From Fictibacillus sp. FJAT-27399 (lineage in GTDB: Bacteria > Bacillota > Bacilli > Bacillales > Fictibacillaceae): DNA of 51,890 nucleotides. A program made the position numbers and the translations under genes. The notes beneath the pieces were generated by a model that saw only the letters and a list, made by a program, of their open reading frames with translations, was not told the origin of the DNA and ran no database searches. Below are positions 41,194-44,110 of the stretch, in pieces (the stretch's first letter is position 1; every line of letters begins with the position of its first letter). Where the stretch lies: the NCBI RefSeq assembly GCF_001510655.1, contig NZ_LMVC01000002.1:666499-718388 (forward strand), in the 5' to 3' direction.

Positions 41194-42084
41194 TTATATT
41201 GAAATACCGATGAATGTACCGATGCATAGCAGAAGACCAAAGCCTAAATGAAGCATTGCTGTGAGTCCGAGTGCTTTGTTCAGTTCTTTAGGCTCCCAGG
41301 TGCGGGCTGCTATTCCTACTGCTTTTAATGCAATCGGCAAAGAAACGATGGCGATCAAACTCCATGCAGGAAGCAGTGAAGCAATTACGAGCAGCAACAG
41401 GATAATATACGTACCAAGCATTAAAATATAATACTCGATTCGAGCTCCTTTTTTGCCGATTAATCCTGCAATCGTAATCTTATTGATCAATTTATCCGTA
41501 TCGATGTCCCTCAGGTTATTGGCGTGCAATATGGCCATGATCAAGAATGCATTTGGAAGTGAAATAAGTACCGTTTCCCAGTGAACCGTTAGCGTCTGGA
41601 CGTAGTAGGAGCCAATAACAGCCAAAACTCCAAGTGTCGTTCCTGAAGCAAATTCCCCAAAGCCATTGTATGCTAGCGCATAGCGGGTAGCTGTATAAAA
41701 GTACCCAATCAGGAGAGAAGGAATTCCGATATATAAAATAAAGCTGCCTGTCAGACTGGCCAAAATTAATCCGATAATACTTCCTAAAGCAAAGAAGATG
41801 AGTCCTGTAATATGGACTTGCACAGGTGTCATTTCCTTACGGTCAATCACTCCGGACGGGCTGAGCGAGCCAGGCTGGTCAGCACCTTTTTTATAATCAA
41901 AGTAGTCGTTCACCAAGTTGGTCCCGCACTGCATGAATATAGCGCCTGCGAGTGTTAATAAAAAGATTCCCCAGTTGATCTCCGTCCATTTCATGGCGAG
42001 AATGGTACCGAAAAGCACAGGTATGATAGAAGCCGTCAATGAAAATGGCCGGGTAGAGGCCAATATAGTCTTAGGGCTTATCAT
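41194..42084 (-). CDS. menA: UbiA-family prenyltransferase (MenA-like)
   Basis: 296 residues, about eight membrane helices. The first Asp-rich motif NDYFDYKKGADQPG (about 60-73) and the second HANNLRDIDTD (about 187-197) are intact, so it should transfer a polyprenyl chain. The sequence fits 1,4-dihydroxy-2-naphthoate prenyltransferase (menaquinone synthesis), with ASTRPFS at the start as in that family. It may be the only copy or a paralogue; the men genes are not nearby. A GGGGGA site precedes ATG 42084. Confidence 0.85.
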   Translation of the reverse strand: MISPKTILASTRPFSLTASIIPVLFGTILAMKWTEINWGIFLLTLAGAIFMQCGTNLVNDYFDYKKGADQPGSLSPSGVIDRKEMTPVQVHITGLIFFALGSIIGLILASLTGSFILYIGIPSLLIGYFYTATRYALAYNGFGEFASGTTLGVLAVIGSYYVQTLTVHWETVLISLPNAFLIMAILHANNLRDIDTDKLINKITIAGLIGKKGARIEYYILMLGTYIILLLLVIASLLPAWSLIAIVSLPIALKAVGIAARTWEPKELNKALGLTAMLHLGFGLLLCIGTFIGISI

Positions 42085-42298
42085 AATCGTTCCCCCTATC
42101 TTACGAAATACAAATTATTAGGCATATCCATTATAAAACAAATGTTTGTGAAAAAGTACACATAATGCTTGTGTTTTATACAAAAAATGAAATTTGTGAT
42201 GGTAAGTATGGAATGTTTTTCTTTCTATGAAATTCCGCAAAACAACGGGTATCTTTCATAAGGAGGATGCATATAAATAAATTGTTTGGTAAAAGAGG

Positions 42299-42334
42299 TT
42301 TACAAGTTACCATGATGTGGTTATAATTACCATG
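42299..42334 (+). promoter_or_regulatory. Strong promoter straddled by a direct repeat
   Basis: TTTACA (42299-42304), 17-base spacer, TATAAT (42322-42327). The octamer TTACCATG occurs at 42307-42314 and 42327-42334, exactly 20 bases apart, i.e. on the same DNA face, overlapping the spacer and the region just downstream of the -10. It looks like a repressor site. Transcription would run into the leader ORF and the YrzI locus. The stretch 42085-42298 holds nothing else I can name. Confidence 0.65.
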
Positions 42335-42372
42335 TAAGAAAAATCAGAATTTATTGAAGGAGGTCGAACACC

Positions 42373-42447
42373 ATGATGCAAAGTAAAACAATTTCAACTC
42401 TGAAGCAACTGAATAAATCAAATAGATGTTCGGCCGTTGGACAGTAG
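42373..42447 (+). CDS. 24-codon leader micro-ORF
   Basis: Starts with two ATG codons behind a near-perfect AAGGAGGTC site (42357-42365) and ends with TAG: MMQSKTISTLK, then QLNKSNRCSAVGQ. About 40 bases downstream of the strong promoter, and followed directly by tandem terminators, so it has the layout of an attenuation leader. No run of one codon type points to a sensed amino acid. It could also be a free-standing micropeptide gene. Confidence 0.5.
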   Translation: MMQSKTISTLKQLNKSNRCSAVGQ

Positions 42448-42471
42448 TCTTTTTTAACAATTCATTTGGAT

Positions 42472-42563
42472 AAAAAAGCGCCGCAGGCTGAACGATGCCT
42501 GTGGCTTTTTTGTGCCCATTTTTGGGTTGGCCGCAGGGGATCTTGTACTGCGGCCTTTTTTTA
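42472..42563 (+). terminator. Tandem intrinsic terminators
   Basis: First hairpin 42472-42512: AAAAAAGC with GCAGGC / GCCTGTGGCTTTTTT. Second 42529-42563: GGCCGCAG / CTGCGGCC then T7. Two terminators in 90 bases between the leader ORF and the YrzI modules suggest tight control of read-through. Confidence 0.85.
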
Positions 42564-42592
42564 TAAATATCAACTTGAGGGAGGAGAGAAAA

Positions 42593-42652
42593 ATGATGAT
42601 TAGTATTGCTTTGTTGACTTGGTTCTCTTTGGAGAAGGATATGACCTGTTGA
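42593..42652 (+). CDS. EKD-type micro-ORF A upstream of YrzI-like gene 1
   Basis: 19 residues, MMISIALLTWFSLEKDMTC, behind a strong GGGAGGAGAG site. It ends 25 bases before the YrzI-like gene. Codons Glu-Lys-Asp (42632-42640, GAG AAG GAT) sit near the 3' end, as in micro-ORF B. The B. subtilis yrzI operon has a comparable 17-residue ORF (S1025) cut by Rae1 while translated. Confidence 0.65.
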   Translation: MMISIALLTWFSLEKDMTC

Positions 42653-42677
42653 TTTTAAAATTAAAGGAGGATTTACT

Positions 42678-42827
42678 ATGTTTACACGACAATTATTTTT
42701 TGGCACAATTACTGTTTCTTTCAAACGAAAAATCAGAACGCATCAAGAAGTTGTACATCAGCAAGAGGTGAATGAGAGGTTCGAAGCCAGCCGCGATAAA
42801 GTCGTGAATACGGTCCTAACCTTTTAG
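42678..42827 (+). CDS. YrzI-like small protein 1
   Basis: 49 residues. N-terminus MFTRQLFFGTITVSFKRK resembles the Bac_small_yrzI family (hydrophobic N-terminus, then basic residues and a polar helix HQEVVHQQEVNERF). Strong AAAGGAGGATTT site. Possibly membrane-associated. The family is annotated as probable sporulation protein, but that is weakly founded. Paralogue of the gene at 42959. Confidence 0.7.
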   Translation: MFTRQLFFGTITVSFKRKIRTHQEVVHQQEVNERFEASRDKVVNTVLTF

Positions 42828-42863
42828 TAAAGTTTGACAATAAAAATTAATGGAGGGATAAAT

Positions 42864-42926
42864 ATGATGGTAAAAAGATACCTGGCGTTTCTAAATTGGA
42901 TCATAACGGAGAAAGATACGACCTGA
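42864..42926 (+). CDS. EKD-type micro-ORF B upstream of YrzI-like gene 2
   Basis: 20 residues, MMVKRYLAFLNWIITEKDTT, behind a TGGAGGGATAA site. Only the ending is shared with micro-ORF A: Trp, a few residues, then Glu-Lys-Asp (42909-42917, GAG AAA GAT), Thr and stop. It ends 32 bases before YrzI-like gene 2. Conservation of the ending and not of the start suggests selection on the 3' part. Confidence 0.65.
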   Translation: MMVKRYLAFLNWIITEKDTT

Positions 42927-42958
42927 AAGGATAACCAGGAAGGAAAGGAGGAACCTGT

Positions 42959-43108
42959 ATGTTTACACTAAACCTTTTCTTTGCTACGATTACCATTTCA
43001 TTAAACAAGAATGAAATGACGTACAAAGAATATGTGCACCAGCAAAATGTAAATGACTTGTTCGATGCTGCTCATGCAAAAGCAATCGACGCGAATTACA
43101 TTCGTTAA
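42959..43108 (+). CDS. YrzI-like small protein 2
   Basis: 49 residues, MFTLNLFFATITISLNKN followed by a polar helical part (YKEYVHQQNVNDLFDAAH). About the same length and plan as YrzI-like protein 1, so the modules micro-ORF + yrzI are duplicated in tandem. Strong GGAAAGGAGGAACC site. Function unknown. Confidence 0.72.
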   Translation: MFTLNLFFATITISLNKNEMTYKEYVHQQNVNDLFDAAHAKAIDANYIR

Positions 43109-43116
43109 TAGATAGA

Positions 43117-43162
43117 AAAAAGCCCTGGCTTGCGCAAATTATAGTGCGAGGCAGGGCTTTTG
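43117..43162 (+). terminator. Intrinsic terminator closing the YrzI locus
   Basis: AAAAAGCCCTG / CAGGGCTTTTG outer stem with an inner TGCGC / GTGCG pairing. Confidence 0.8.
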
Positions 43163-43214
43163 CTGTATGATGAAGATATAAATCATAAAGAAGGGTTAAA
43201 AGGGTTGAACGTTC

Positions 43215-43385
43215 ATGAAAAAAGATATTCATTGCTGTGCCACCTGCATCAATTTTAAGGTTTCAAGAACGGAGCAGGGGATGAAATATGAGTGTACAAG
43301 GCTTGGATATGAAACCCAGCCTTCCTATAAATTCAACTGCTGGGAACCAAAGGATCACATCAAAAAGTGGCTGGAAGAAGAATAA
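43215..43385 (+). CDS. Small cysteine-rich protein
   Basis: 56 residues. CCATC at residues 7-11, then C27 and C42 in FNCWEPK, giving a likely zinc site (CxxC + C + C). Aromatic residues and GYETQPSYKFNCW suggest a compact fold. I recall similar short hypothetical proteins in Bacillus but no name. The start ATG 43215 has only a modest GGGTTGAA site. It ends 2 bases before the end of the convergent TPM gene, with no room for a terminator. Confidence 0.65.
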   Translation: MKKDIHCCATCINFKVSRTEQGMKYECTRLGYETQPSYKFNCWEPKDHIKKWLEEE

Positions 43386-43387
43386 CT

Positions 43388-44110
43388 TTACCAGCCTCTT
43401 CCTGCCCCGCCACCGCCGGAAGACCCGCCACCACCACCGCGCCGTCCACCGCCACCGCCTCTGGATATCATGGAGAGGATCATGTAAGTCAGAAACCCAT
43501 TAAAAAATTTTACATCCAAAAAGATAACCACTACGATGATAAGAATGTAAAACCACGAGAAAGGATCTTTTTTCTTTTCGTTAGGAGGAGGGTTATCCTG
43601 TCCCTTGTATTCTTGTGTGATCTCTTTAGCAAGAGCCTGATACGTTTGTGTGACAGCCGAGTCAGGCTTCCCTTGTTTCATATAGGGAATCGCATTTTCG
43701 TCCAGAATCCTTCCAGCTTTTCCGTCTGGAATAGCACCCTCAAGACCATATCCAACTTCAATCCTGATTTTCTTCTGTGACATGGCAACGACGAGCAGTA
43801 CGCCGTTGTCCGCTTTTTTCGTGCCAAGCCCGTACGTCCTATAGGCTTTATTCGCATAGTTCTCAATGGGTTCACTTCCAATAGACTTAACGGTCAGAAC
43901 AGCAAGCTGTGCTGTCGTCTGATCTTCCAGCTGTCTTCCCAATGACAGCAACTCTGCTTCTTGCTGTTGATTTAAGATGTTCGCGAAGTCCTGAACATAA
44001 ATATCTCCCGTTGGAGCAGGTATCTTTGCTGCTGATACCGGTTCTCTGGCTGTTAGTATGGTGAAAAAGAGAAACACCATCAAAAGGAGGGAGAATCTTT
44101 TGGAAAGCAT
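43388..44110 (-). CDS. TPM-domain (YgcG-like) secreted/membrane protein
   Basis: 240 residues. Signal peptide (LLLMVFLFFTILTAREPVSAA), TPM domain at about 35-170 (VQDFANILNQQQEAEL, GVLLVVAMSQKKIRIEVGYG), one C-terminal helix (FSWFYILIIVVVIFLDV) and a Gly-rich end that would be cytoplasmic. TPM proteins are linked to photosystem repair phosphatases in plants; in bacteria they pair with LemA. Start overlaps the lemA stop by one base, indicating coupled translation. Confidence 0.85.
   Translation of the reverse strand: MLSKRFSLLLMVFLFFTILTAREPVSAAKIPAPTGDIYVQDFANILNQQQEAELLSLGRQLEDQTTAQLAVLTVKSIGSEPIENYANKAYRTYGLGTKKADNGVLLVVAMSQKKIRIEVGYGLEGAIPDGKAGRILDENAIPYMKQGKPDSAVTQTYQALAKEITQEYKGQDNPPPNEKKKDPFSWFYILIIVVVIFLDVKFFNGFLTYMILSMISRGGGGGRRGGGGGSSGGGGAGRGW

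Follow-up and report, generated by a model that had tools for sequence, protein, structure and literature searches.

The window, that is the whole stretch of 51,890 nucleotides from Fictibacillus sp. FJAT-27399 which was analyzed, contains at 42593-43108 two successive modules, each made of a micro-ORF (19 codons in the first, 20 in the second) and then a 49-codon YrzI-type gene. These modules had been pointed out in an earlier note made from the letters alone, and their coordinates, ORF lengths and gaps of 25 and 32 nt were all reproduced (Table 1). The note had also described both micro-ORF peptides as ending in Glu-Lys-Asp (EKD) and finally Thr; the EKD is indeed present in both peptides, and the final Thr does not hold for peptide a, which ends with EKD-Met-Thr-Cys. 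The positions 42634 and 42911 named in it are the last base of the GAG codon in micro-ORFs a and b. Ahead of the modules, the region 42362-42562 holds a leader ORF and terminators, by which the operon as a whole is probably controlled; this region went unmentioned in the note. The hairpin and T-run at 43120-43162, absent from the terminator scan, whose loops span 3-8, are probably the end of the operon. A cysteine-rich 56-aa ORF (MKKDIHCCATCINF...) at 43215-43385, 3′ of the operon, has no Pfam or NCBIfam match above cut-off and is present in other same-genus loci.

Table 1. Features of the YrzI locus, with positions in the window.
Feature	Position	Strand	Description
Promoter-like TTTACA-17-TATAAT	42299-42327	+	11 of 12 consensus letters; the scan gave 4 sites against 4.1 expected, weak alone
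Arm 1	42362-42370	+	GGTCGAACA; extends the leader ribosome site; 9-bp pairing with arm 2
Leader ORF	42373-42447	+	MMQSKTISTLKQLNKSNRCSAVGQ, 24 aa; ribosome site AAGGAGGT
Arm 2	42427-42435	+	TGTTCGGCC; inside the leader ORF near its end; pairs with arm 1 or arm 3
Intrinsic terminator 1	42480-42511	+	GCCGCAGGC...GCCTGTGGC, T6
Arm 3	42486-42494	+	GGCTGAACG; in the 5′ arm and loop of terminator 1
Second terminator-like hairpin	42529-42562	+	GGCCGCAG/CTGCGGCC, T7; not in the list of the terminator scan
Micro-ORF a	42593-42652	+	MMISIALLTWFSLEKDMTC*, 19 aa; ribosome site GGGAGGAGAG
Expected Rae1 cut, micro-ORF a (putative)	between GAG (end 42634) and AAG (start 42635)	+	
YrzI-a	42678-42827	+	49 aa; ribosome site AAAGGAGG; 25 nt after micro-ORF a
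Micro-ORF b	42864-42926	+	MMVKRYLAFLNWIITEKDTT*, 20 aa; ribosome site GGAGGG
Expected Rae1 cut, micro-ORF b (putative)	between GAG (end 42911) and AAA (start 42912)	+	
YrzI-b	42959-43108	+	49 aa; ribosome site AAAGGAGG; 32 nt after micro-ORF b
Hairpin and T-run	43120-43162	+	CCCTGGCTTGC...GGCAGGGCTTTT, read from the sequence

YrzI-b passes Pfam PF09501 (28.9 bits, cut-off 23) and stays below the cut-off of TIGR02413 (19.1 bits, cut-off 47). YrzI-a is under the PF09501 cut-off with 13.3 bits; an HMM from relatives gives it 42.6 bits (i-E 1.7e-11), and by its sequence it is clearly homologous to the YrzI family. Both genes can hence keep the description as YrzI-like, YrzI-b by Pfam and YrzI-a by the HMM of relatives, not by Pfam alone. 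At E<=0.05, PF09501 was found in 7/7 genomes of the genus, in 29/34 of the family and in 226 of the 397 genomes sampled from the order, 190 of them above the curated cut-off.

The survey was done on 162 oriented YrzI loci from 52 genera of one order, with one to five YrzI genes per locus; duplicate places are contained in this number (e.g. L003/L009, L007/L010, L006/L011 and L049/L083). Beyond the loci from the searches, 100 regions were chosen among the listed order-wide matches (E down to ~9e-9), because of which low-scoring YrzI places outside the family of the window are under-sampled. Genera are given as codes, g1 being the genus of the window and g2 and g4 sister genera. The YrzI tree suggests that the tandem YrzI copies arose by separate duplications in g1 and g4, with the copies of g4 grouping together (support 99/96), but it is built from short rows, and both copies of the g1 locus L008 fall apart from the other g1 copies.

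An ORF of 15-25 codons led by a ribosome site stands beside YrzI in 153/162 loci. An ORF in which x-K-D is followed by just one to three last residues was found beside YrzI in 112/162 loci, and 50/162 are without it by the same criteria; the most frequent ending is [V/T/L]-E-K-D-[S/T]-[T/A/G]. Among the start-stop pairs of the ribosome-site-led 15-25-codon ORFs beside YrzI, where several in-frame starts of one ORF are counted apart, 162/244 have the x-K-D ending against 0/114 control ORFs of the same loci, so this ending beside YrzI is more than chance. Further Rae1 sites were also looked for in the genome of the window with the strict pattern GAGAARGAYN6TRA, which gave 7 matches (2 with a control pattern); the only match within a small ribosome-site-led ORF is micro-ORF b, and micro-ORF a does not fit the pattern.

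The ending bears on Rae1 (YacP), which reportedly cuts S1025, an ORF of 17 codons, between Glu13 and Lys14 in a frame-dependent way. Its cleavage of S1025 and of bmrX, the second known target with 26 aa, has been reported (Leroy in 2017, Deves in 2023, Gilet in 2025). To our knowledge the direct targets of Rae1 are few, namely two. One rae1 gene (198.7 bits) is present in the genome of the window, standing between genes which by resemblance we take to be rlmB/yacO and sigH. The homologue on which a decay reading depends is thus there, and its product matches YacP of PDB 5mq8 at 3.2e-66 and is identical to it in 106 of the 163 aligned columns. The presence of rae1 discriminates nothing by itself and was uninformative as a test, because 396/397 sampled genomes of the order have the gene; the sole genome without a Rae1 match (G412) likely has a gap.

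A single genome of the sister genus g2 (G020) carries a Rae1 with an in-frame internal deletion (L199, L205). Among the 18 g2 genomes, it is also alone in giving no YrzI (16 have YrzI by Pfam, and G024 by protein search), and the block from leader to YrzI is missing beside its gene resembling menA. This co-loss of Rae1 and YrzI is an anecdote of one case.

In the named records of the B. subtilis complex, among which B. subtilis 168 is not included, an ORF of 17 codons, M[LF][RK]MELLMHYTMEKDQV (...MEKDQV), lies 3′ of yrzI in B. halotolerans, B. mojavensis, B. spizizenii, B. inaquosorum and B. tequilensis. This ORF fits the description of S1025, and the S1025-type ORF therefore carries EKD in all five named species, as the earlier note had needed. 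In B. spizizenii, a GTG-started ORF of 26 codons (L198:715-795) precedes a bmrC-like gene, and we take its length to fit bmrX; it has GCG-AAG and no x-K-D, so the x-K-D signature may not be general to Rae1. S1026 is listed upstream of yrzI (PMC3498285), and S1024, S1025, S1026 and yrzI are among the seven Rae1 candidates selected by Leroy (PMC10632193).

A marked regularity of the micro-ORFs was found at the base directly before the expected cut. In the 121 x-K-D micro-ORFs (112 loci, 32 genera, not deduplicated, for which reason genus counts are given as well), the Glu before Lys is GAG in 103/103. For comparison, GAG makes up 224/1023 Glu codons of the YrzI genes of the same loci, 19/93 of their Glu codons before Lys and 10/76 in the leader ORFs, and elsewhere in these micro-ORFs the two Glu codons occur 8 times each. 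By genus GAG was found in 24/24 with none GAA, which at the YrzI rate has a probability of ~1e-16 under independence of the genera, an assumption that is not entirely true. The conservation at codon level of GAG-AAR-GAY that the earlier note had proposed to look for is accordingly strong for GAG, and AAR and GAY vary (Lys AAG 61 and AAA 60; Asp GAT 92 and GAC 29). Where x is other than Glu (18 cases) the codon is G-ending in 14, and where such a residue offers a codon choice (Gln, Arg, Leu, Ser, Val, Lys and one Gly; Met, Trp and Tyr excluded) it is G-ending in 11/12, the exception being GGA.

The same base was followed without use of the motif. The 192 adjacent ORF rows were reduced to 173 distinct ORFs, of which 148 have ATG and a ribosome-site score of >=5; spurious ORFs remain among these and count against the motif. 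A wobble G five residues before the stop was present in 135/148 distinct ORFs from 49 genera (93% when weighted by genus), and this is the most conserved base of the region except the T of the stop codon. Where the residue is not Glu, G was found in 46/58. In 4 rows of the g1 micro-ORF a, the window's own included, the fixed position falls on Lys (AAG) and the G is there by accident; with these 4 rows removed, together with residues that leave no choice (Met, Trp and those with no G-ending codon), G remains in 39/43 from 22 genera. The 13 exceptions among the 148 are TAT (four times in g63, once in g33), CAT (g33), GAT (g118), GGT twice and GAA once in g4, there in first-module ORFs without EKD, and GGA (g70), TTA (g32) and AAC (g25), where the motif is absent; in the GAA exception (L022) the Lys is lost as well.

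If EKD matters as a peptide alone, synonymous codons should mix, and GAG in 103/103 therefore indicates a constraint at RNA level. As far as the aligned codons tell, what is conserved is a property of the RNA or of the codon immediately 5′ of AAR, where Rae1 is expected to cut.

A constraint on the peptide is present in addition. In micro-ORF a, the six same-genus loci gave pS 0.607, pN 0.025 and pN/pS 0.042; the changes are synonymous save one Thr/Asp difference near the end, and GAGAAGGAT is without any. The ratio is 0.105 in the sister genus g2 (15 loci) and 0.12 in g65 (7 loci), compared with 0.41 and 0.25 for the YrzI genes of g1 and 0.275 for those of g2. For micro-ORF b it is 0.37, obtained from just 3 closely related sequences of equal length (3/6 loci, owing to a length difference). 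The frames of the micro-ORFs are thus conserved in relatives, and on these ratios micro-ORF a is more than a cut site; a role at protein level, such as an antitoxin, is plausible for it.

These ratios also favor the alternative in which the micro-ORFs encode functional peptides, for example YrzI antitoxins, and EKD is kept as protein without any part of Rae1. The low pN/pS of the micro-ORFs in g1, g2 and g65, which is below that of YrzI, is what this alternative expects, and the name spyTA, which Gilet et al. use in a 2025 title given in the reference list of PMC12320835, agrees with it; that YrzI is a toxin with the micro-ORF peptide as antitoxin is an analogy suggested by the name alone. A peptide constraint by itself, however, does not fix the wobble of Glu, nor does it keep the wobble G at Gln, Arg, Leu, Ser, Val and Lys in the 11/12 cases (with one Gly counted), and micro-ORF b is less constrained with 0.37 from its 3 sequences. 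We regard this alternative as unlikely.

The G could also belong to a GGAG acting within the micro-ORF as an internal ribosome-binding-like pause site or as a part of an RNA hairpin, and not as a Rae1 site. Most variants do read GGAGAAR, and the V-EKD-ST class can form, by eye, a 5-bp hairpin GTGGA...TCCAC; the variants CAG-AAG, AGG-AAA, TTG-AAG, TCG-AAA and GTG-AAA, however, keep the G and not GGAG, and no such hairpin was seen by eye in the T-EKD-[ST]T class, which includes micro-ORF b. This makes the pause-site or hairpin explanation quite improbable.

The position of the micro-ORF relative to YrzI differs between families. Of the genera having an x-K-D ORF, 25/32 have it exclusively behind the last YrzI; a place ahead of the first YrzI is limited to 3 genera (g1, g2, g3), all from the family of the window, and a place between YrzI genes occurs in g1, g4, g7, g21 and g65, and the first micro-ORF of the sister genus g4 lacks EKD in 5/5 loci. 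The statement of the earlier note that the locus has the same arrangement as in B. subtilis does not hold in detail, as the micro-ORF of Bacillus is downstream of yrzI and that of the window is upstream; judging from these loci, gene order would be a variable and not a defining property of yrzI/S1025 operons. A purely translational role, in which the micro-ORF of the window's family regulates YrzI by delivering ribosomes to it or letting them reinitiate there and decay plays no part, is hardly credible: the micro-ORFs do lie 25 and 32 nt ahead of YrzI, but a strong ribosome site belongs to YrzI itself, and an x-K-D ORF found only behind the last YrzI, as in 25/32 genera, cannot serve as an upstream ORF.

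Leader ORFs, for which a strong ribosome site was demanded, precede the first YrzI in 143/162 loci (19 are without) and give 136 distinct sequences from 47 genera. In the locus of the window, the pairing of arm 1 with arm 2 has a shuffle p of 0.005 and the leader region a fold z of -2.75; at a place equivalent to the promoter-like sequence, the locus L062 has TTTACA-17-TATACT. The helix at the ribosome site beats codon-shuffled controls (p<=0.05) in 102/136 leaders and, by median, in 32/47 genera. Among these 102 leaders, its partner stretch uses each of the three reading frames (44, 40 and 18 cases, encoding IRP, FDL, HST, RST and so on) and is therefore kept as RNA and not as peptide; the leader peptide is nearly unconstrained (pN/pS 0.76, 12 sequences of g2). 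Covariation was analyzed in 126 leaders with GGAGG, of which 118 passed the core score, at the held-out helix positions 7-8, which were not used in choosing the partner; these covary with 63 pairs against 56.8 expected (p 0.0028, 39 genera). A terminator follows the leader in 130/136 cases against 5/136 shuffles. The alternative pairing of arm 2 with arm 3 has p 0.04 in the window's locus, and at p<=0.05 it was found in 2/7 leaders of g1, 12/15 of g2 and 20/136 overall (5/47 genera by median), so that good support for the predicted antiterminator is confined to leaders close to that of the window. Rfam gave no match at E<=1 in 41900-43500, and by this search the leader thus belongs to no RNA family that Rfam lists. 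Leader and terminators together make, by analogy, an apparent bmrB-like attenuator.

From this evidence, we consider it probable that the locus represents the yrzI/S1025 (spyTA) operon of B. subtilis in duplicated form, and that its message for the small YrzI proteins senses translation and destroys itself. The Rae1-type decay proposed in the earlier note is supported, with the cleavage itself predicted from codons. Transcription would start just upstream of the 24-codon leader ORF. With normal translation of the leader, the terminators at 42480-42562 would halt RNA polymerase; a ribosome stalled in the leader would let arm 2 pair with arm 3 and the operon would be read, as proposed for bmrB-bmrCD. 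Conservation shows that the micro-ORF accompanying YrzI keeps the frame NNG-AAR-GAY in its last codons with the wobble G nearly fixed, and Rae1 would enter the A site of a ribosome on the micro-ORF and cut between the NNG and AAR codons. A read-through message which is well translated would then be destroyed, so that YrzI is made only briefly. Less firmly, the product of the micro-ORF may act also as a peptide, perhaps as YrzI antitoxin, in view of the strong selection on micro-ORF a at the protein level. The occurrence of the x-K-D motif on either side of YrzI is what one would expect of a site cut in cis. Cleavage upstream of YrzI, as in the window, or downstream, as in Bacillus, could each start decay, and this would account for a gene order that could change with the cut signature unchanged. 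Duplication of the whole module would keep one site per YrzI.

A wider form of this proposal, which we put forward only tentatively and would sooner doubt than assert, holds that these operons are one hitherto undescribed class of device with two locks across the order. The attenuator would release the message under translation stress, and the NNG/AAR codon pair would let Rae1 remove it on recovery of translation; the micro-ORF would serve as decay tag and protective peptide at once, and the tandem copies would be two independently cut modules. In this form, the NNG/AAR pair would be obligatory, read in frame and independent of the amino acid encoded by NNG, and the wobble G would be the specificity signature of Rae1.

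Antibiotic-responsive leaders of the vmlR and erm type in Firmicutes, to which the leader of the window can be likened, combine a short leader ORF with RNA pairings that exclude one another, ahead of a terminator or of a ribosome site. The locus of the window differs from these in having neither a resistance gene nor a conserved stall peptide, the leader pN/pS being 0.76 from 12 sequences of one genus. The small ORF bmrX before bmrCD can presumably be likened to the micro-ORF before YrzI; the payload is an ABC transporter in bmr and YrzI in the window, and the ORF fitting bmrX is without x-K-D. The terminator of bmrB lies within the coding region of the leader, and that of the window after the leader stop codon. 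The window has the bmrB-type combination of a short leader ORF, its ribosome site and an intrinsic terminator ahead of the genes, and it has in common with bmrB-bmrX-bmrCD (bmrB in PMC4191407) that the payload genes are preceded by a leader ORF and a terminator, with stem-loops that in the window are putative alternatives; according to the same source, translation of the bmrB leader is needed for read-through induced by lincomycin. In B. subtilis the yrzI and bmrCD mRNAs are noted to rise together on depletion of RNase P or Z (PMC10100781) and also in a whiA mutant (PMC10714963).

With yrzI/S1025 (spyTA) of B. subtilis, the locus has in common a YrzI-type protein of 45-49 aa, an adjacent ORF of 17-20 codons which ends with EKD plus two or three residues, an upstream leader ORF with terminator, and rae1 in the genome. 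It differs in its order (leader, micro-ORF and yrzI, the last two given twice, against leader, yrzI and S1025 in the B. subtilis type), in its endings (EKD-MTC and EKD-TT against EKDQV) and in having the module twice. The yrzI attenuator, the signature at codon level and the tandem modules are undescribed in the surveyed portions of the yrzI literature, and the primary Rae1 papers may contain them.

A base which is free in the genetic code is yet fixed beside the expected cut wherever Glu stands (24/24 genera) and is mostly kept when the residue changes. The fixed wobble G reduces the specificity of Rae1 to a single question on synonymous codons in B. subtilis 168, and the leader raises a second one, namely whether translation stress opens the yrzI message as it does for bmrCD. 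If both are true, YrzI operons would be a widespread natural reporter of the translation state, switched at transcription and at decay.

Two other kinds of small ORF were seen at the surveyed loci. In L064, L068, L078, L105, L056 and others, the micro-ORF is followed on its 3′ side by one more short ORF (such as MLSLHVLLLTIFFEKK...), which has a strong ribosome site and by eye is like the start of YrzI. A variant class of micro-ORF upstream of YrzI, ending in WY..VKGLT, is present in L100, L125, L126, L133, L134, L138, L116 and L047; in this class GTG-AAR-GGC replaces GAG-AAR-GAY and the wobble G is retained.
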